NCBI GenBank assembly: GCA_034189865.1
Contig: JAXHTV010000024.1
Coordinates: 1 to 36,957 of the forward strand
Reading direction: 5' to 3'
Length of the DNA: 36,957 bases
Source: Pseudomonadota bacterium
GTDB lineage: Bacteria; Pseudomonadota; Gammaproteobacteria; UBA5335
Shown here: positions 878 to 36,957 of the stretch, in pieces
Layout: the number at the start of each line of letters is the position of its first letter
Numbering within the stretch: position 1 is the first letter of the stretch
Notes under the pieces: generated by a model
What the model was told of the DNA's origin: nothing
Databases searched by the model: none
What the model saw: the letters and a program-made list of their open reading frames with translations, nothing else
Position numbers and translations under genes: made by a program

Positions 878-1528
878 ATGTGGGAAATTGTCCAGGCCGG
901 TGGCCTTTTGATGGCGCCGATCATCCTGTGTTCCCTGTTGTCTGTGGCGATCTTCGCCGAGCGACTGTGGACACTCCGGCGGGAAAAAATCGTGCCCGCG
1001 AATCTGGTCGAGCAAGTTCGCGGTTCCCACCAAGGTAAAGCGTTAGACGCGACTCAACTGACACAACTTCGCCAGCATTCTCCGCTCGGTCGGGTCCTGG
1101 CGGCCGGTTTGGCGAACGAACATCTGGACCGCACGGCGGTGAAAGAGGGGATCGAAGATGCCGGCCGACATGTAGTCCACGAGCTCGAGCGCTACTTGAA
1201 CACCCTGGGCACCATCGCCGCCATTACCCCGTTGCTGGGGCTTCTCGGGACGGTGATCGGCATGATCAAGGTGTTTTTTGCTATCACTACCGTCGGTGTC
1301 GGTGATCCGACCGCGCTGGCCGAAGGTATCTCCGAAGCGCTGATTACTACCGCTGCGGGTTTGTCCGTCGCGATTCCATCGTTGATTTTTTACCGTTATC
1401 TGCGTGGGCGTGTGGCTGAGATCGTCGTCGATATGGAAGGTCAGGCCATCCAGCTGATGGAAGCCTTGTATGCGGAAGGCGTTCGTCCTCGCCGCCGGAC
1501 CACACGCGCCAAGGCGGCCACGTCATGA
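878..1528 (+). CDS. exbB: ExbB/TolQ-type proton channel protein
   Basis: Inner-membrane subunit of the MotA/TolQ/ExbB family, which forms a pentameric proton channel around ExbD/TolR dimers. I start at the ATG at 878 (MWEIVQAGG), preceded by AGAAGAGG; the reading frame stays open back to 785 but that part overlaps comEC and does not look like an N terminus. The protein is 216 residues, with a first membrane helix near residues 10-30 and two more in the second half (an ITPLLGLLGTVIGMI segment, then an ALITTAAGLSVAIPSLI segment), as expected for the family. Its stop overlaps the exbD start by 4 nt (ATGA), so the two are translationally coupled. There is no tonB nearby, so the energised partner is unknown; a role linked to the envelope operon that follows is inference. 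Confidence 0.9.
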   Translation: MWEIVQAGGLLMAPIILCSLLSVAIFAERLWTLRREKIVPANLVEQVRGSHQGKALDATQLTQLRQHSPLGRVLAAGLANEHLDRTAVKEGIEDAGRHVVHELERYLNTLGTIAAITPLLGLLGTVIGMIKVFFAITTVGVGDPTALAEGISEALITTAAGLSVAIPSLIFYRYLRGRVAEIVVDMEGQAIQLMEALYAEGVRPRRRTTRAKAATS

Positions 1529-1947
1529 AACTCCAGCCGCGGCAGGGCGAGGAACCCGAACTCAATCTGACACCACTGATCGATGTGGTGTTTTTGTTGT
1601 TGATCTTTTTCATGGTCACGACCAGTTTCATCCGTGATGCCGAACTTCGGATCGAGTTACCCAAGGCGAGCCTGGAACCCCAGGTGACCCGGGCGGATGG
1701 GTTGGCGGTGGTCATCGACCAGGACGGCCGCTTTTTCATCAATGAGCAAGAAGTGGTGAATGCCCGTCCGGAAACGCTACGCCAGGCCATGACCAAAGTG
1801 GCGGGAGACAATCGCGGCCTGTTGCGCGTGCGGGCCGACGCCCGTGCTTCACACCAAGCGGTGGTCACTGTGCTGGATGTCGCCGGGCAGCTGGGTTTCT
1901 CGGACATCGTTATCGAAACGGCGAATCTTTCTGCCGACGGCTCATGA
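1525..1947 (+). CDS. exbD: ExbD/TolR-type biopolymer transport protein
   Basis: Partner of the ExbB-like protein encoded just upstream. 140 residues: a short cytoplasmic N terminus, one membrane helix at about 15-36 (LTPLIDVVFLLLIFFMVTTS) containing the essential proton-accepting aspartate (Asp20), and a periplasmic domain to the end. The layout and length match ExbD/TolR. The gene overlaps exbB by 4 nt at its start and msbA by 4 nt at its end, so three genes in a row are coupled. The same pair precedes msbA in many non-enteric gammaproteobacteria. Whether it works with TonB, TolA-like or another partner cannot be read from this window. Confidence 0.92.
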   Translation: MKLQPRQGEEPELNLTPLIDVVFLLLIFFMVTTSFIRDAELRIELPKASLEPQVTRADGLAVVIDQDGRFFINEQEVVNARPETLRQAMTKVAGDNRGLLRVRADARASHQAVVTVLDVAGQLGFSDIVIETANLSADGS

Positions 1948-3707
1948 GCAGTCGTGACCAAACCAACTCGGGCGCCGCAATCTATCGGCGCCTGTTGGGC
2001 TATTCCATGGCGGATTGGCCGATTTTTGCGGTCGCCATCGTGGGCATGGTCCTGTTCGCCGTGGCGGAAACGGGTTTCGCATGGATGATGAAACCCTTGT
2101 TGGATGGCAGCTTTGTCGAGCGTGATCCCGCGGTGATCCGGGCGATGCCCTTTGTGCTGATCGGGTTGTTCCTGCTTCGGGGCGTGGCCGCCGTGGCTTC
2201 GGGTTACGGCATGGCGGTGGTGGGCCAGAATGTGATCCACACCATGCGCTCGGAATTGTTTAGCCATATGCTTCGTCTGCCGGCGTCGTTCTTTGACCGG
2301 AACCCCTCCGGTCAGTTGCTTTCCCAACTGACGTTCAACGTCGATCAGGTCTCACAAGCCGCCACCCAAGCCGTCACGGTGTTGATCCGCGATACGCTGA
2401 AAGTCATCGGGTTTATCGGTCTGATGTTTTATTTGAATCCGCTATTGAGCGGTTTCGCGCTATTGGTGGGCCCGTTGATCGCGTTGCTGATCCGTTTCGT
2501 CAGCCGACGGTTCCGGCGAATCAGTACCCGCATCCAGAATTCCATGGGCGAGCTTACGCATACCTCCGAGGAAATGATCGACGGCCAACGTATCGTCAAG
2601 ATTTTTGGCACCCAGGATTACGAGCAAGGCCGATTCGAAAAGGTCAACGAACACAATCGACGTTTGAATCTGAAACGTTCGCTGACCCAGCAGGCCAGCA
2701 ACCCGACGGTTCAGCTGATCGCTGCGATACCTATCGCGGGGATCGTCTACGTTGCCACCAGCGAGAATGTGCTTGGGACCATGTCGCCGGGCTCCTTCGC
2801 GGCGTTTCTCGGCGCCATGATCGGGTTGCTCAATCCGCTCCGACAATTGACCACGGTAAACGCTCAGTTGCAGCGGGGTATCGCCGCCGCCGAGAGCATT
2901 TTCGATCTGTTGGGAACCGAGCCGGAGGCGGATGTCGGCACCCGGCGTCTGCCGCGGTCCCAGGGCCACATTCAGTTCGCGGGGGTTCGGTTTCGATATA
3001 AAGCCGAGCATCGCCCCGTGCTTGATGGCATCGACCTGGAGGTGAAGCCCGGTCAGACCGTCGCTTTGGTGGGACGATCCGGCAGCGGAAAAACCACGTT
3101 GGTGAGCTTGTTACCGAGGTTCTACGATGTGGACCAAGGTCGGGTGCTGCTGGACGGTCAGGACGTTCGCGAATACCGCCTGGCGGATTTACGCAGCCAA
3201 ATCTCGGTTGTCAGTCAGGAAGTGGTGCTTTTCAACGACACGGTTGCGGCCAATATTGCCTACGGCGTGGTCGGAGAGATCACGGAACAGCGCTTGGAAG
3301 ATGCTGCCCGGGCAGCCCATGCGTGGGAGTTCATTCAGGCGTTGCCGCAGGGGCTCAGTACCCCCATCGGCCAGCACGGCACACTGCTATCCGGTGGCCA
3401 GCGGCAGCGCTTGGCGATTGCACGTGCTTTGCTCAAGGATGCGCCTATTCTGATTTTGGATGAGGCGACTTCCGCTTTGGATTCCGAGTCGGAACGCCAT
3501 ATCCAAGCGGCGCTGGAAGAACTGATGCGAGAACGCACCACTTTGGTGATCGCGCATCGCCTTTCCACCGTGGAAAGGGCAGATCAGATCATCGTGATGC
3601 ACAACGGCCGGATCGTCGAACAGGGAACCCATGCCGAGCTGCTGGCGCAGGGAGGGCACTATGCAGAGTTACACCGGCTACAGTTCCGGGAATCCGAAAC
3701 AGCCTGA
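1944..3707 (+). CDS. msbA: Lipid A flippase MsbA (ABC transporter, fused permease and ATPase)
   Basis: Inner-membrane ABC exporter that flips core-lipid A to the periplasmic face before transport to the outer membrane; it works as a homodimer. At 587 residues it has the family length. The first 330 residues or so hold the six-helix permease domain, with the first helix near 28-48. The nucleotide-binding domain has a Walker A (GRSGSGKTT, about residues 377-385), the ABC signature LSGGQ at about 480, Walker B ILILDEATSALD at about 503-514 and the switch histidine in VIAHRLSTV. The start overlaps exbD (ATGA). A 192-nt stretch without a convincing gene separates it from lpxK, the usual next gene, which acts on the same molecule. 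Confidence 0.95.
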   Translation: MSSRDQTNSGAAIYRRLLGYSMADWPIFAVAIVGMVLFAVAETGFAWMMKPLLDGSFVERDPAVIRAMPFVLIGLFLLRGVAAVASGYGMAVVGQNVIHTMRSELFSHMLRLPASFFDRNPSGQLLSQLTFNVDQVSQAATQAVTVLIRDTLKVIGFIGLMFYLNPLLSGFALLVGPLIALLIRFVSRRFRRISTRIQNSMGELTHTSEEMIDGQRIVKIFGTQDYEQGRFEKVNEHNRRLNLKRSLTQQASNPTVQLIAAIPIAGIVYVATSENVLGTMSPGSFAAFLGAMIGLLNPLRQLTTVNAQLQRGIAAAESIFDLLGTEPEADVGTRRLPRSQGHIQFAGVRFRYKAEHRPVLDGIDLEVKPGQTVALVGRSGSGKTTLVSLLPRFYDVDQGRVLLDGQDVREYRLADLRSQISVVSQEVVLFNDTVAANIAYGVVGEITEQRLEDAARAAHAWEFIQALPQGLSTPIGQHGTLLSGGQRQRLAIARALLKDAPILILDEATSALDSESERHIQAALEELMRERTTLVIAHRLSTVERADQIIVMHNGRIVEQGTHAELLAQGGHYAELHRLQFRESETA

Positions 3708-3899
3708 TCGTGAGCTGCCGCGCCGCATGGTCCTTGCGGCAATGATTCAATGCGCCATGCCTCAAGGCTGCTCGAGGCTGGCGTTCCTCGCGGCGAGATC
3801 GATCCGGTGTCGATCGTCCGTCGATTTCGTGCATCTTCTCCGGGGCTTCGGTCGAATCGGATGCGTTTTTGCCTGCTTTTTGCGCACTCGGTACCGCCC

Positions 3900-4961
3900 A
3901 TGAATCGGTCCGTCGATCCTCGAATCCGGATCCGGCTGGAGCGCGGAATCAATCGCCTGTGGTATGGGGCACGATGGCGATCTTGGCCGCTGTGGCCGCT
4001 GAGCGCGTTGTTCTGCGCCATCGTGGTGGTTCGGCGCTGGCGGCTTGTGCGTGTTCAGCGTAAAAAAAAGCCATCCCCGGTTCCGGTTGTTGTGGTCGGG
4101 AACATCACCACCGGGGGAACCGGCAAGACCCCGTTGGTGGTGGCGATTGTGCGCCACTTGCGGCAGGCCGGTTATTCGCCTGGTGTGATTACGCGGGGCT
4201 ACGGGGGCCGGTCGCCGGCTTGGCCCCAACGGGTCGTACCGGATAGCGACCCGCGTTGGGTGGGTGATGAACCGGTGATGTTGGCGCGATCCTGTGCTTG
4301 TCCGGTGGTTGCCGGCCCCGATCGCATGGCGGACTTGGGCCTGCTTGTCAGTTCCGAGCGCTGCGATGTGGTGGTCAGCGACGACGGCTTGCAACATTAC
4401 CGCCTGCCGCGGGATGTTGAGATCGCGGTCCTGGACGGTGAGCGCGGTTTGGGTAACCGTCTTTGCCTGCCCGCTGGGCCGCTCCGTGAGCCGTCGGGCC
4501 GATTGCGGCAGGTCGACTTTGTGGTCATCAACGGTGGCGGAGATGATGCGGGCGTGCCAATGCAGCTCGCGGCTGCAATGCCCGTGAATCTGACCAGCGG
4601 CGAACAGCGGCCTCTCTCGGCGTTTGCCGATGCGCAGGTCCACGCCATTGCCGGAATCGGCAACCCCGAGCGTTTCTTCACGACGCTAAAGCGCGCTGGG
4701 TTGCAAATTCTGGAACACCCTTTTCCCGACCATTATGATTATCATCCACACAATCTGGACTTCGGTGATGATAGGGCGCTTATTATGACCGAGAAGGACG
4801 CCGTCAAATGCGCGGGGATCGCCCCGGCCAATGCATGGTATCTCCCGGTGGAGGCGGTTTTGCCGGATTCTTTTTTCGATTCGCTTGTTCGTCGGATTCA
4901 AAGTCGGCGGCGTACCGGGCGTTCCGTTGTGCCAGCTGAAGCAGAGGTCAAGGATGGATAA
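3900..4961 (+). CDS. lpxK: Tetraacyldisaccharide 4'-kinase LpxK
   Basis: Phosphorylates the 4' position of the lipid A disaccharide to make lipid IVA, on the cytoplasmic face of the inner membrane. From the ATG at 3900 the protein is 353 residues, close to the family size; the frame is open back to 3750, but those 50 residues show no LpxK similarity. A hydrophobic N-terminal anchor covers about residues 28-46 ([19 protein letters not shown]), and the Walker [12 protein letters not shown] lies at 67-77. The motifs VITRGYGG and [12 protein letters not shown] are typical of LpxK. The end overlaps the next small gene by 8 nt. It is one of several lipid A and KDO genes in this operon. I see no sign of damage. 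Confidence 0.94.
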
Positions 4962-29003: not shown

Positions 29004-31770
<2,767 letters not shown>

Positions 31771-31820: not shown

Positions 31821-31993
31821 GTTCAGGCGAGTGCGCCGCTTGTCGCGAGTCATACGGTCTTTAGAGCCGTTCCCGAGGTGGAGAAACACGAACTACGCTT
31901 CTCGTTGGGATAATGGGGAGTCCGCCTGATGCGCCGAAGATTGCACGGCGCGCCCCACTGATTTTGCTGGGTCACCTCCTTGAGCGATACATC

Positions 31994-32911
31994 ATGATGC
32001 GAAATATTGCCGTCTTATTGTTTCTTTGCTTTTTCTGTTTGCCCGCCGGTGCGACGTCTTCGTCGGTCACGCCGAGATACCCCGTGGTATTGGTCCACGG
32101 TTTCATTGGTTTCGACCAATTGTTCGGGATCGTTCCATATTGGTTTGGTATCGCCAAAGAGCTGGAACGGAGCGGCGTCGAGGTTTACGTCGCCCAAGTC
32201 TCCGCCGTGAATTCTTCGGAAATCCGGGGCGACCAATTGATCGAGCAGATCGAGCATTTTCTGCAACAAACGGGCGCCAGTAAGGCCAACATTATCGGTC
32301 ATAGCCAAGGTGGCTTGTCGGCGCGTTATGTCGCTGCCGAACGCCCGGATTTGGTCGCCAGCGTGACCACGGTCGGTGCACCCCACAAGGGCAGTGAATT
32401 GGGAGATTTTGTGCGGCGCCTGACTGGAGGTGACCAAACGTTACGGGCTGGTTTCGTTCACGTAACCGTCGGTCTGCTCGGGCGGCTGATCGATCTGTCG
32501 TCTACCGGCGGTTATCCGCAGGACGGTAAGGCGGCATTGTCGTCGCTGACGGCCGTGGGTCTTGAAGACTTCAACCGTCGTTATCCACAAGCCGTACCCG
32601 AGGATTGTGGCGAGGGTGCTTATGAGGTCGACGGGATTCGGTATTACTCATGGGGTGGGGTGCGGAACTGGACGACCGTCGTTGATCCCAGCGATGTCAT
32701 CTTGTGGTTGACAGGGTTGGTTTTCGAGGAAGAAAACGACGGACTGGTCGGTCGCTGCAGCAACCATTTGGGTATGGTGATACGGGACGATTATCCCCAT
32801 AACCACATTGATGAGATTAATCAAATACTGGGATTGGACGGATTCGGGCCATTCGAGCCGAGCGAAATTTATCTCGAGCACGTGGCCCGACTGCGTGAGG
32901 CCGGTTTGTGA
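31994..32911 (+). CDS. Secreted triacylglycerol lipase, family I (Pseudomonas LipA-like)
   Basis: Alpha/beta hydrolase of 305 residues. The start is taken at the double ATG 31994/31997, which gives a clean signal peptide (MMRNIAVLLFLCFFCLPAGA); the frame is open back to 31913 but that would bury it. The mature part follows Pseudomonas LipA closely: PVVLVHGFIGFD (oxyanion hole), IIGHSQGG with nucleophile Ser104, catalytic Asp249 in ENDGLVG and His271 in HNHIDEIN, and cysteines 205 and 255 placed as the LipA disulfide. DPSD and HLGMVIRD are also family signatures. Such lipases usually leave by the type II system and need the steric foldase LipB; no lipB follows here. The ribosome-binding site is poor. 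Substrate preference is unknown. Confidence 0.9.
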   Translation: MMRNIAVLLFLCFFCLPAGATSSSVTPRYPVVLVHGFIGFDQLFGIVPYWFGIAKELERSGVEVYVAQVSAVNSSEIRGDQLIEQIEHFLQQTGASKANIIGHSQGGLSARYVAAERPDLVASVTTVGAPHKGSELGDFVRRLTGGDQTLRAGFVHVTVGLLGRLIDLSSTGGYPQDGKAALSSLTAVGLEDFNRRYPQAVPEDCGEGAYEVDGIRYYSWGGVRNWTTVVDPSDVILWLTGLVFEEENDGLVGRCSNHLGMVIRDDYPHNHIDEINQILGLDGFGPFEPSEIYLEHVARLREAGL

Positions 32912-33063: not shown

Positions 33064-34131
33064 TTACGGGCTGTACTGTCGGATGACGCGCTCGTATTCA
33101 AACCAGCTCAGTTTTGGGGAGCGATCTTCTTCCAACAATCCACTGTGGCGTTGGCGGGGCTGGGACTCGTTTGGATTATCCAGATACTCGTACCAGAAAA
33201 AACCCACCGCGCCGGCGCGCAGCGTGTATTCCGCCATGTTGCGTAAAAAAAGCCGTTGCGCCTCCGGTGTGCGACCCTCACCATCACCGGTCTTGAAACC
33301 CGTTTCCAGGACAATCACGGGTTTGCCACCGCTGGCGTATCTAGACTGAGTGATCACGCGGCAGACATAACCCGCAAAACCTTCTGTGATCGGTCCGCCG
33401 ATGGCCGGGTACATGTATACGCCCACAAAATCGTAATCCGCGACCAGTCTCATTCTTGCGATAAACTGCAGGAATCCCGGGACGGCGACGACCGATAGGA
33501 CCGTCTTTGCCGAGCGGTCAGTCTGTTTCACTGCTTCGTTCAAGGTATGAATGATCCGCATTTTGGCGGTGGGTGACCACAGATGGGCCCGCTGATTACT
33601 CGCCACGTGCTGATAATCCAAATTGATTTCGTTCTCCAGCGACCAGTATTCGATGGTGTCGTGATACCGCTCGACCACTGCGCGGGCATAACGGTCAAGA
33701 ACATCCAGGTACTCGCCGATTCGCAAGTCTCCCGTCCACTCGGGTGCGACGGCCCGGTCCCGGTTATAGCCGTTGCCGATTTGGCCAATAATCTGGATGC
33801 CGTTGCGGGCGGCTTCCTGGGTGACCATGTCGAAATAGCTGAAATCGTAGGGTTCACCTCGTACCGGCTCGATTCGCTTCCAGGCATAGTCGACCCGAAT
33901 CCAGCGGATGCCAATTTCGGCCATCGCGCGGAAGTCGTCGGGGTAAAGTTCGTAGTCGGGCAGGGGGATGTGGTAGGCCGTGATTCCCCACATAAACCCC
34001 TCCGGAGCCTGAGCGGGCGGCTCTGCGGTGCAGTTGTCGCGACCACCCGTGAGTTGCTCCAACGGGTTTCCATAGCTCAAGGTGCTGGTCGTTGCGAGGG
34101 CGATGATGAATATCCAAACGTACTTTCGCAT
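33064..34131 (-). CDS. Secreted clan GH-A glycoside hydrolase, substrate unknown
   Basis: 355 residues from the ATG at 34131, which has AGGAG upstream and begins a signal peptide (MRKYVWIFIIALATTSTLSYG); the frame is open to 34287 but that part overlaps the upstream gene. The (beta/alpha)8-barrel clan A pattern is visible: GIRWIRVDYAWKRIEP (early strand), WSLENEIN with the acid/base Glu168 after Asn167, and VIVLETGF with nucleophile Glu276. Related families include GH5, GH39 and GH42; I cannot choose one. It is exported, probably to the periplasm. It is the last gene of an operon with a VTT membrane protein (14-nt gap) and a glycosyltransferase-sulfotransferase, so its target may be the glycan made by that enzyme (inference). 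Confidence 0.82.
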   Translation of the reverse strand: MRKYVWIFIIALATTSTLSYGNPLEQLTGGRDNCTAEPPAQAPEGFMWGITAYHIPLPDYELYPDDFRAMAEIGIRWIRVDYAWKRIEPVRGEPYDFSYFDMVTQEAARNGIQIIGQIGNGYNRDRAVAPEWTGDLRIGEYLDVLDRYARAVVERYHDTIEYWSLENEINLDYQHVASNQRAHLWSPTAKMRIIHTLNEAVKQTDRSAKTVLSVVAVPGFLQFIARMRLVADYDFVGVYMYPAIGGPITEGFAGYVCRVITQSRYASGGKPVIVLETGFKTGDGEGRTPEAQRLFLRNMAEYTLRAGAVGFFWYEYLDNPNESQPRQRHSGLLEEDRSPKLSWFEYERVIRQYSP

Positions 34132-34145
34132 GCAAAATTCTCCTG

Positions 34146-34883
34146 CTAGGCCGGCGGCAATAACCGTCGGACAATGACGGTCAGCACCATTCCAAAGAGC
34201 GCCAGGACCACGATCTCTGGCGAGTACCACCAGCCGGGTTCGGCGTTTAGGGCGCGTTCGATTGCTCGCGGGCCGAGGGTGCTCCACAGCACGATATGGG
34301 GTATTCCTCCCAGTACCGAAGCGAAAATGTAATTCCGCCGTGTGACATCCAGCGTCGCCAATGCCCAGTTGACCGGCGGCACGGCGAACATCATCAGCCG
34401 CATGTAAAGCACGGTTCGAAAACCGTTGCCGTTGATGAGCTCAGAAGCCTTAGCCGGAAGCGCTCGGAAGCACATCGCGACGAACTCTTGGCCGAGCCGC
34501 TGACCGATGGTGTAAGTGAAATAACACGCGATGGCCCAATAGATGAGGGTCAGTACGATCGTCATCATGGGGCCGTAGATCAGGGACACGGCGATCAGTA
34601 CCAGCACGGTGGGGACATTCAGCAACACACCACCGACCCCGAGAACAATGATCGCCAGCGGACCGAAAACACCCCATGACAGGCTCCATTCCCGTAACAG
34701 ATCGACCAAGTCATTGATTCCCTGTCGGCTGACATCGACCTCTACAGGCAAGCTGCGGGAAGCGGCGGCCAAGGCCAGAATGACGACGAGCAGGAGCAAA
34801 AAGCGCAGGGCGCTCGGAAATACCCGGCGGGGTTTTTCTGCCACCTCGATTTCCGACAGGTCACGTAAGGTTCGTTTGTGCAT
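34146..34883 (-). CDS. TVP38/TMEM64 (VTT-domain) inner-membrane protein
   Basis: 245 residues. One hydrophobic segment at about 26-44, then a block with the VTT/SNARE-associated pattern: GPLAIIVLGVGGVLLNVPTVL, AVSLIYGPMMTIVLTLIYWAIACYFTYTIGQRLG, and YMRLMMFAVPPVNWALATLDVTRRNYIFASVLGGIPH, ending in a last helix at about 222-240. The wider DedA/VTT superfamily includes lipid scramblases and carriers for undecaprenyl phosphate, so a role in moving a lipid-linked product is plausible, not shown. The ATG at 34883 has GGGAGGTG 6 nt upstream and lies inside the end of the preceding gene (23-nt overlap), so the two are coupled. Confidence 0.85.
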   Translation of the reverse strand: MHKRTLRDLSEIEVAEKPRRVFPSALRFLLLLVVILALAAASRSLPVEVDVSRQGINDLVDLLREWSLSWGVFGPLAIIVLGVGGVLLNVPTVLVLIAVSLIYGPMMTIVLTLIYWAIACYFTYTIGQRLGQEFVAMCFRALPAKASELINGNGFRTVLYMRLMMFAVPPVNWALATLDVTRRNYIFASVLGGIPHIVLWSTLGPRAIERALNAEPGWWYSPEIVVLALFGMVLTVIVRRLLPPA

Positions 34884-36924
34884 GGCTTACACCTCCCTTG
34901 TAAGCGACAGGAGAAGTCGTCCCTTCTTCGTACCAACCGATGGGGCGGCGTTCCAACAGGGCGAGCACCTGCTGTTCTTCCCTTTCGGACAGCAGGTATT
35001 GCCCTTTGCTTTGCATACGAGAGCCTTGCTGGGAGTTGCGGGCAAGCAAATCTGCGATGGCATTCGGTTCCAGCCCGGTGACCGGATAACCGAGCTCGGA
35101 AAATAGTGTGCTAATGCACGGGCCGGGATCTTTAAGTAGCTCCTCATAGCGGATGATCGCGTTGAAAAAAGGAGGCGCTGTTCGTTGCAGTCGGGCGCTC
35201 TCCGCCATGTGAGAGAGCCACTGCAGCGTGAAATAAGCCACCGCGCTGGCGCGTCCGTGCCGATGGAATTCCGGGTGATTGAAGAGTGGAACAGTCGCTC
35301 CCAATGCTTTGCGCGTATGGGGGATCGACCCCAGTGTGGAGAGCAGCAGCCTATCGAGTCCGAGGCGTCTCCAGATGCGATACTGTCGCTCGGAAAAATA
35401 GGCATTGAGGAAGGAATTGATCGTGGGCAGCGGGTCGCGGTAAAGAAAAACATGATCACCGCGGACACTGAGCGGTTCAAACAGCGGTGCGGCGAAAAGA
35501 CACCAGCTGCGCAATTTTATCAGGGGCTGCGTCATCTTCGGATCGCGACAGCGCAGGTGGTGGCCGAGCAATCGTGTGCAACGATCCATAAGCGCACGCA
35601 ATTCCTCGTCGCGTCGGCCTTCCGCCATACGCGAGAGCAATACAGCCTGGCTGTAGAAGTCCGGTTCGGAGATGGACTGGACATTCCCGGTGGTTGCCAA
35701 CAGTTGGCTCAGCAACGTCGAACCGCAGCGCCCGGTGCTGTGCAAAAAGATCGGACGGGGGATTTGCTCCGCGGGCAGTAAGGCATCGACCAAGCGCTCC
35801 AAATCACCGTAAGCCACGGCGTGGATTCGAATTGCGTGATCACGCTGAGCTTCATAGAAAAACGGATCCGCCGTGAGCAGATCGACTGTCTCAGGGGTTT
35901 CCACCAAGAGCAGCCGACGACGATGATCATCCAGGCAATAGGGCGTAATGTGCGCGCCGCGTTCATTCAGCAATTTAACGATGTCAGTTTGGCCGTCCGC
36001 GCGTTTGAAGAAATGGCTTGGGCTGGCCAGTTCTGCGGGGACGAGGCGAGGCCAACGAGCGACGATCTTGTAGGAGTTCGCCAATACCCGAGGCAGGTGG
36101 GCATTGGTATGGAGCCGTTCTGCAGGGTCGTTGCCCGAATGATTGGCGGCGTATTCGAACGGCGGGTTGATCAGTACCGGTTTGACGGATTGAATCACCG
36201 TGCCGAAGACCATCTTCCACAACAAGCGAAGACGTCCCTCGCTGTGGAAACGTCGCATGTCCAGCATGATTCGCCCACGCTTCAGTAGACGAAACCGCGT
36301 GCCATCGCTCGCCCTGCGGAGATACTCCACATCTTCGCCAAAATGCATGTTCTCGTTGAAGCCGCCTTGGCGCTCGTGAACATCACGTAGCACGAGATAA
36401 CCGGCCGAACCAGGGGCAGTGGGAGCGACGTGTTGCAATAGCCCCATACCCATATTGAAAAGGCGGGCGATGAGTCGGTCGCCCCAACAGTCGGAACCGC
36501 TGATAAAGCGGAACGCGGCCGTGCTTAAGCCGCGTTGTTGCATTTCCGCGGTGGCATCTAAAAGGGTGCGTGGGGAGATGCGGGCATCCGCATCCAGGAA
36601 TACCAGGTACTGTCCGCGTGCATGCTTCGCGCCGGCGTTTCGCGCAGATGAAACACCTTTTACCGGTGCCTGCACAAGCCGGATGCGGTCAGGTTGAGAA
36701 CGTGCCAATGCCTCGACAATTCGTGGCGTGCGATCTGTGCTGCCATTGTCGGCGACGATGATTTCCAACTTGGCAGTGGCGTCTTGCAAGAGATCGCCGA
36801 GCAAGCGATCGACCACGCCCTCTTCGTTCAGAGTCGGAATGACCACACTAATATACGGTCTCTCCGTGGTGGCGTTTCGGCTTTTCGGAGCGATTTTTAG
36901 GCATGATTGGGATGAGATAGGCAT
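34861..36924 (-). CDS. Fusion of family 2 glycosyltransferase and PAPS-type sulfotransferase
   Basis: 687 residues, two enzymes in one chain. Residues 24-250 or so are a GT2 glycosyltransferase: ISVVIPTLNEE (25-35), ADNGSTDRTP, the metal-binding DADARIS (111-117) and FGEDVEYLRR (195-204) with the catalytic ED. Residues about 388-650 are a sulfotransferase of the Sulfotransfer_3 type: HSTGRCGSTLLSQLL (395-409) is the 5'-phosphosulfate loop and FLYRDPLPTINSFL (493-506) the 3'-phosphate motif with Arg496 and Ser504. Residues 255-387 are an unassigned linker or domain. No membrane helix is obvious, so it is probably cytoplasmic. The start is firm: AAAGGAGGG precedes the ATG at 36924. First gene of the operon seen here; only 33 nt remain upstream. 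Confidence 0.88.
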   Translation of the reverse strand: MPISSQSCLKIAPKSRNATTERPYISVVIPTLNEEGVVDRLLGDLLQDATAKLEIIVADNGSTDRTPRIVEALARSQPDRIRLVQAPVKGVSSARNAGAKHARGQYLVFLDADARISPRTLLDATAEMQQRGLSTAAFRFISGSDCWGDRLIARLFNMGMGLLQHVAPTAPGSAGYLVLRDVHERQGGFNENMHFGEDVEYLRRASDGTRFRLLKRGRIMLDMRRFHSEGRLRLLWKMVFGTVIQSVKPVLINPPFEYAANHSGNDPAERLHTNAHLPRVLANSYKIVARWPRLVPAELASPSHFFKRADGQTDIVKLLNERGAHITPYCLDDHRRRLLLVETPETVDLLTADPFFYEAQRDHAIRIHAVAYGDLERLVDALLPAEQIPRPIFLHSTGRCGSTLLSQLLATTGNVQSISEPDFYSQAVLLSRMAEGRRDEELRALMDRCTRLLGHHLRCRDPKMTQPLIKLRSWCLFAAPLFEPLSVRGDHVFLYRDPLPTINSFLNAYFSERQYRIWRRLGLDRLLLSTLGSIPHTRKALGATVPLFNHPEFHRHGRASAVAYFTLQWLSHMAESARLQRTAPPFFNAIIRYEELLKDPGPCISTLFSELGYPVTGLEPNAIADLLARNSQQGSRMQSKGQYLLSEREEQQVLALLERRPIGWYEEGTTSPVAYKGGVSHAQTNLT

Positions 36925-36957
36925 TTTGCCCTCCTTTGGGGGAGAAGGTGCGAAATA

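Follow-up and report, generated by a model that had tools for sequence, protein, structure and literature searches.

A glycosyltransferase-sulfotransferase fusion operon with a VTT membrane protein as a candidate system for making and exporting a sulfated glycolipid

The window analysed here is the whole of contig JAXHTV010000024.1 (G000:C24), 36,957 b long, taken from a 2.9-Mb, 72-contig gammaproteobacterial assembly. On its minus strand lies an operon of three genes encoding, in this order, a family 2 glycosyltransferase (GT2) fused to a sulfotransferase (ST) of the group called ST-A here, a VTT-type membrane protein and an exported glycosidase. The chances are about even that this operon serves to build a sulfated glycolipid and to export it. 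The gene order, the domain make-up, the intact active-site motifs and the association of ST with VTT genes are established by the sequence. The features of the operon were located as follows, with the basis of each assignment in brackets:

36929-36937, minus strand: ribosome-binding site of the fusion gene, aaaggaggg (sequence)
34861-36924, minus strand: GT2-sulfotransferase fusion gene, 687 aa, ATG start (Pfam, full-length fusions in five genomes, AlphaFold2 model)
36139-36867, minus strand: GT2 domain, residues ~20-262 (Pfam, alignment, Foldseek)
34945-36027, minus strand: sulfotransferase region, residues ~300-660 (alignment of 12 ST-A sequences)
35713-35739, minus strand: 5'-phosphosulfate-binding (5'-PSB) loop STGRCGSTL, residues 396-404 (invariant in 12/12 ST-A sequences)
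35410-35448, minus strand: 3'-phosphate-binding (3'-PB) region FLYRxxxxTxNSF, residues 493-505 (R496 and S504 invariant in 12/12)
34891-34899, minus strand: ribosome-binding site of the VTT gene, aagggaggt, within the fusion gene (sequence)
34146-34883, minus strand: VTT/TVP38-type membrane protein, 245 aa (PF09335; member of the ST-linked VTT clade)
34365-34400, minus strand: clade motif RLxxFAxPPxNW, R162-W173, at the second re-entrant helix (15/15 clade members)
34139-34144, minus strand: ribosome-binding site of the glycosidase gene, aggaga (sequence)
33064-34131, minus strand: exported clan GH-A glycosidase, 355 aa (Pfam, barrel model, conserved catalytic residues)

The fusion and VTT genes share a 23-nt overlap, the ATG of the glycosidase gene lies 14 nt past the VTT stop, and each gene has a good Shine-Dalgarno sequence, exactly the layout that a first-pass annotation had described. 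The contig ends 33 nt upstream of the fusion gene, and the sequence farther upstream is not visible.

Pfam recognised in the fusion protein a GT2 domain at residues 26-150 (PF00535, 1.9e-28, 100 bits against a cut-off of 23.3) and a Sulfotransfer_3 domain at residues 391-451 (PF13469, 1.2e-5). The PF13469 score was 26.1 in the full protein, just under the cut-off of 27, and rose over it, to 27.9, when the ST region was scanned alone. Besides the window's genome, four further gammaproteobacterial genomes encode a full-length fusion, 50-62% identical overall to that of the window, and the GT2 motifs DAD (D111/D113) and ED (E197/D198) are invariant across the five. Since the protein is full-length in five genomes with its catalytic motifs invariant, the fusion is more than chance; it implies that the two halves, because they are joined, act in consecutive steps on one molecule. 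The alignment of the 12 ST-A sequences contained 44 invariant columns, among them the loop for 3'-phosphoadenosine-5'-phosphosulfate (PAPS), which is of the RxG motif type, and an N-terminal mini-domain of the ST region (PYCLDD...FFYEAQR) is common to the stand-alone ST-A proteins. The AlphaFold2 model, of modest confidence (mean pLDDT 64), showed a GT-A fold at ~25-240, the mini-domain and a P-loop ST fold at ~390-610. The best Foldseek matches of this model were GT2 enzymes, including RmlT, the chondroitin polymerase K4CP and PcManGT; almost all of the 50 matches listed were glycosyltransferases, and the search was uninformative on the ST half. A plasmid search gave no record covering 80% of the fusion, and a comparison with PHROGs gave nothing informative.

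The VTT protein of the window scored 48.6 bits with PF09335 (cut-off 33.9). A profile built from 11 ST-linked VTT proteins was searched against 369 genomes of the class, and the result was sharply bimodal, with ten places at 176-343 bits and the next at 80. Nine of the ten lay directly behind an ST gene. Four places had not been used in the profile (G002:C8, G003:C20, G021:C31 and G021:C39); in the first two the VTT gene is directly behind a pair made of a family 1 glycosyltransferase (GT1) and an ST, and in G021:C31 two ST genes precede it, one from each of the two ST kinds. At 30 other VTT loci, no match to the tested ST, glycosyltransferase (GT) or glycoside hydrolase (GH) queries was found. 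In the tree, 15 clade members formed one side of a branch with a support of 100/99, separated from 28 other VTT proteins and four Escherichia coli DedA proteins. The motif RLxxFAxPPxNW was present in all 15 and in none of 29 other VTT proteins.

The DedA/VTT branch COG0398 (TVP38/TMEM64) offers the closest comparison: in common with it, the clade has the PF09335 fold, lacks an acidic residue at re-entrant helix 1 and keeps a single Arg at helix 2 (PMC10127716). Related VTT proteins, those of COG0398, are regarded as probable phospholipid scramblases (PMC10127716), and the residue pattern of the clade fits such a scramblase-like branch. Yet the clade branches, with good support, apart from all sampled VTT proteins including E. 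coli YdjX and YdjZ, FAxPPxNW replaces the usual PxxPFxxxN, and the gene is nearly always behind a sulfotransferase. In a residue comparison that included E. coli YghB and YqjA as control sequences, only the equivalent of Arg130, among Glu39, Asp51, Arg130 and Arg136 of YghB, was kept in all 15 members. Transport of undecaprenyl phosphate (C55-P) by these proteins is unlikely because the residues of undecaprenyl-phosphate flippases (COG0586), as read in PMC10127716, are missing. A role of the VTT protein as a C55-P carrier or recycler, put forward in the first-pass annotation, was therefore rejected: the acidic residues and the second arginine are absent in 15/15.

Parallel operons strengthen the idea of a sulfated glycolipid, and they are more support for it than the trio itself. 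In contig C8 of the same genome, one operon holds a GT1 of the macrolide family (TIGR01426, scoring 309 where the cut-off is 260), an ST of another kind (Sulfotransfer_3, 3.7e-20) and a VTT gene. The arrangement is repeated in two relatives (G002:C8 and G003:C20). The GT1-ST-VTT operons, with a VTT protein of the same clade, are:

L142 (G000:C8), 1414-4603
L198, 3936-7172
L199, 608-3721

A stand-alone ST-A followed by a VTT gene, with no GT, was found in contig C17 of the window's own genome and in G002-G005. As the VTT gene follows the ST whichever GT is present, or none, the substrate of the VTT protein is more likely the sulfated product than a sugar donor or carrier.

The ST-A/VTT pairs are usually accompanied by a convergent alpha/beta-hydrolase-like gene matching no Pfam family. 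The family beside these pairs carries the motifs GGFDPxRG and GMSxS, has no NCBIfam match either, and includes:

L120, 10436-11308, minus strand
L122, 5884-6846, plus strand
L124, 797-1684, plus strand
L125, 4159-5109, minus strand
L011, 11400-12227, plus strand

An exported hydrolase-like gene of no Pfam family also lies near the GT1-ST-VTT operons L142 and L198. At the edge of G000:C14 (L144, 6537-8591), another sulfotransferase gene is followed by a macrolide-family GT1 running off the contig end.

Among relatives, the VTT gene comes after the fusion in four of the five fusion genomes (the window's, L010 in G004, L011, and L013 in G018). In G001, GT2 and ST are separate neighbouring genes followed by a VTT gene, and in G002 and G021 GT2 and ST-A are on different contigs. 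The full trio was found in two genomes only, the window's and G004 (L010), which are members of one family; the L010 glycosidase has lost its last ~50 residues near a contig end. Since the glycosidase follows in the window and in L010 only, the core of the system consists of GT2-ST and VTT, with the glycosidase as a local addition. The first-pass annotation had made its sulfated glycan or glycolipid pathway depend on conservation of the operon in relatives, and the operon does recur, as fusion plus VTT in four genomes, unfused in one and as the trio in two. The pathway it proposed was reinforced by the ST-VTT and GT1-ST-VTT operons, while the part given to the glycosidase shrank to two operons. 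Relatives of the GT2 half were also seen in other settings. In L123 (G002:C10, 5372-8059) the gene after an unfused GT2 encodes a SulP-type sulfate permease, and the pair adjoins OxyR-AhpCF, as in the window neighbourhood. In L128 (G021:C26, 3000-7967) a GT2 relative comes after a 1360-aa protein that combines PIG-L deacetylase, GT2 and group-1 GT domains.

The glycosidase starts with a hydrophobic leader of the export type, for which the longer GTG start is not needed. Pfam gave weak partial matches to GH42 and GH1. The model was a confident (beta/alpha)8 barrel (pLDDT 87), and N167-E168, the predicted strand-4 acid/base, and E276, the predicted strand-7 nucleophile, are invariant in nine sequences. 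By sequence and model, the protein thus has the features of a retaining glycosidase of clan GH-A. A profile search of PDB sequences aligned PslG with the larger part of the barrel (49-334 of 342, 5e-8). PslG, a GH39 enzyme of the Pseudomonas Psl exopolysaccharide cluster, is likewise an exported clan-A glycosidase encoded with biosynthetic genes. However, the identity in structure alignments was ~16-18%, GH1, GH10 and GH39 barrels scored alike in Foldseek, and no polysaccharide machinery was found near the window glycosidase. Strong matches to the glycosidase family were present in three of the 369 genomes (four copies in the window's own, two in G002, two or three in G021), all three of which also have ST-A (hypergeometric probability about 1e-6, not corrected for kinship). 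Paralogs of the glycosidase lie beside exported alpha/beta-hydrolase-like genes (L219, L222) or pairs of acyl-CoA dehydrogenase genes (L220, L222, L223).

We propose the following scheme, in which we infer every activity, the lipid acceptor, the transport direction and the order of the steps. In the cytoplasm, the GT2 domain would add a sugar to an acceptor, most likely a lipid. The fused ST would then add sulfate from PAPS, probably onto that sugar. The co-translated VTT protein would allow the lipid, anionic once sulfated, to pass the inner membrane, and the exported glycosidase may trim or turn over the headgroup in the periplasm. By analogy with the roles known in the VTT family, the simplest interpretation is that a sulfated lipid passes across the inner membrane. 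Besides the parallel operons, the scheme is favoured by the Sat-CysC PAPS synthase of relatives, by the SulP gene after the unfused GT2 of G002 and by the restriction of strong glycosidase matches to genomes with ST-A. More tentatively, and with a likelihood somewhat short of even, the FAxPPxNW clade as a whole might consist of dedicated sulfolipid scramblases or exporters serving at least two unrelated GT-ST modules and placing sulfated glycolipids outside some gammaproteobacteria.

Several observations weigh against a sulfated glycolipid. The fusion has no membrane segment, nor any feature that would prove its acceptor to be a lipid. The fusion in L012 has no adjoining VTT gene, the clade VTT gene of G021:C39 is not behind an ST, and three of the five fusions have no glycosidase gene next to them. 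ST-A was found in 5/369 genomes of the class, mostly in one bacterial family, and with a family so small and phylogenetically narrow the associations are not many independent events. Finally, neither an adenosine-5'-phosphosulfate (APS) kinase (PF01583) nor Sat-CysC was found in the window's own assembly. Each of the five family members examined carries Sat-CysC upstream of a malic-enzyme gene, and contig C53 of the window's genome ends inside that malic-enzyme gene, at codon 38. Because C53 breaks off where the synteny of the relatives puts Sat-CysC, the missing PAPS-making gene probably falls into an assembly gap, and a real absence of PAPS synthesis is the less likely reading. APS kinase is also present in G018 and G021, both of other families.

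If the product were a sulfated polysaccharide, the GT2 would extend a polyprenyl-linked oligosaccharide, the ST would sulfate it and the PslG-like glycosidase would clip or clear the periplasmic polymer. Polyprenyl-linked acceptors are frequent for GT2 enzymes, exopolysaccharide clusters commonly include hydrolase genes (PMC9075953), and the alignment with PslG is in line with this. We consider it rather unlikely, as the surroundings of the fusion operons showed no recognisable polymerase, Wzx flippase, ABC exporter or additional glycosyltransferase, the VTT protein is devoid of the flippase residues, and the parallel operon has a macrolide-type GT1, typical of hydrophobic acceptors. The VTT protein could also be a housekeeping or stress membrane protein merely co-transcribed with GT2-ST and not handling its product. 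The window's genome has eight VTT proteins, and the uncoupled genes of L012 and G021:C39 would be expected; but three ST-VTT pairs would arise by chance in one genome with a probability of ~1e-6 (a rough Poisson estimate), and a single VTT clade is linked to two ST subfamilies and two GT families, which makes mere co-transcription distinctly unlikely.

A sulfated arsenosugar, or some other small soluble sulfated glycoside, is quite improbable as the product of the fusion. Sulfated arsenosugars exist, the arsenosugar glycosyltransferase TIGR04283 is the nearest curated family and best curated model for the GT2 half, and ArsS (TIGR04167) was over its cut-off in 4/5 fusion genomes and in 0/5 ST-A genomes devoid of the fusion (Fisher p 0.048), a small-sample hint that is not explained away. 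However, membership of the GT2 half in TIGR04283 was rejected at 106.9 bits against the equivalog cut-off of 182, and it carries an ST. No GT2 of its family occurs in the DNA examined around ArsS in G000 or G004, the fusion was never seen beside ArsS, and in G018 a TIGR04283-like GT is beside ArsS with the fusion on another contig. The second operon, moreover, employs the unrelated GT1. That the three genes are unrelated neighbours with no common pathway is very improbable: the glycosidase missing beside most fusions would be accounted for, but not the tight spacing with an overlap, the fusion of two functions and the order conserved across genomes.

Sulfated glycolipids, GT2s, STs and DedA proteins are each already known. 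We know of no described GT-ST-VTT operon, and a literature search of open-licence papers for ST with DedA/TVP38 found no description of one. In the Nod-factor pathway of rhizobia, NodC, a GT2 chitooligosaccharide synthase, and NodH, a PF13469-type ST with an RxG loop (reviewed in PMC11625862), also build a sulfated glycolipid. In contrast, GT2 and ST are in one protein in the window, no genes for a NodA acyltransferase, a NodB deacetylase or a NodIJ exporter adjoin it, and the VTT gene takes the place of the exporter. The mycobacterial pathways for sulfolipids and sulfated glycopeptidolipids (Stf0 and related STs) resemble the proposed one in that a glycolipid is sulfated before or during export. 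They rely on MmpL-type export and polyketide acyl chains, and no relation to the window operon was found beyond the ST fold. The PAPS loop of Stf0 also uses an Arg (PMC11625862). The substrates of COG0398/TVP38 DedA proteins are largely unknown in bacteria, and the ST-linked clade offers a concrete candidate substrate in a two- or three-gene system small enough for laboratory reconstitution. It also suggests that sulfated glycolipids occur in a bacterial family for which we found no description of any.

Downstream of the operon, one convergent neighbour was annotated:

31913-32911, plus strand: secreted lipase-like alpha/beta hydrolase (PF00561, 4.4e-21)

Exported hydrolases adjoin several related loci, and by this association the gene is possibly related in function to the operon. 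In G000:C37 (L143, 6436-10259), ArsS is near a VTT protein fused to a disulfide-reductase-type domain. Farther along the window, the catalase-peroxidase gene katG (29548-31770) encodes an export-type leader and lies beside OxyR, AhpC, AhpF and cytochrome bd oxidase genes, an oxidative-stress island with an apparently periplasmic KatG.

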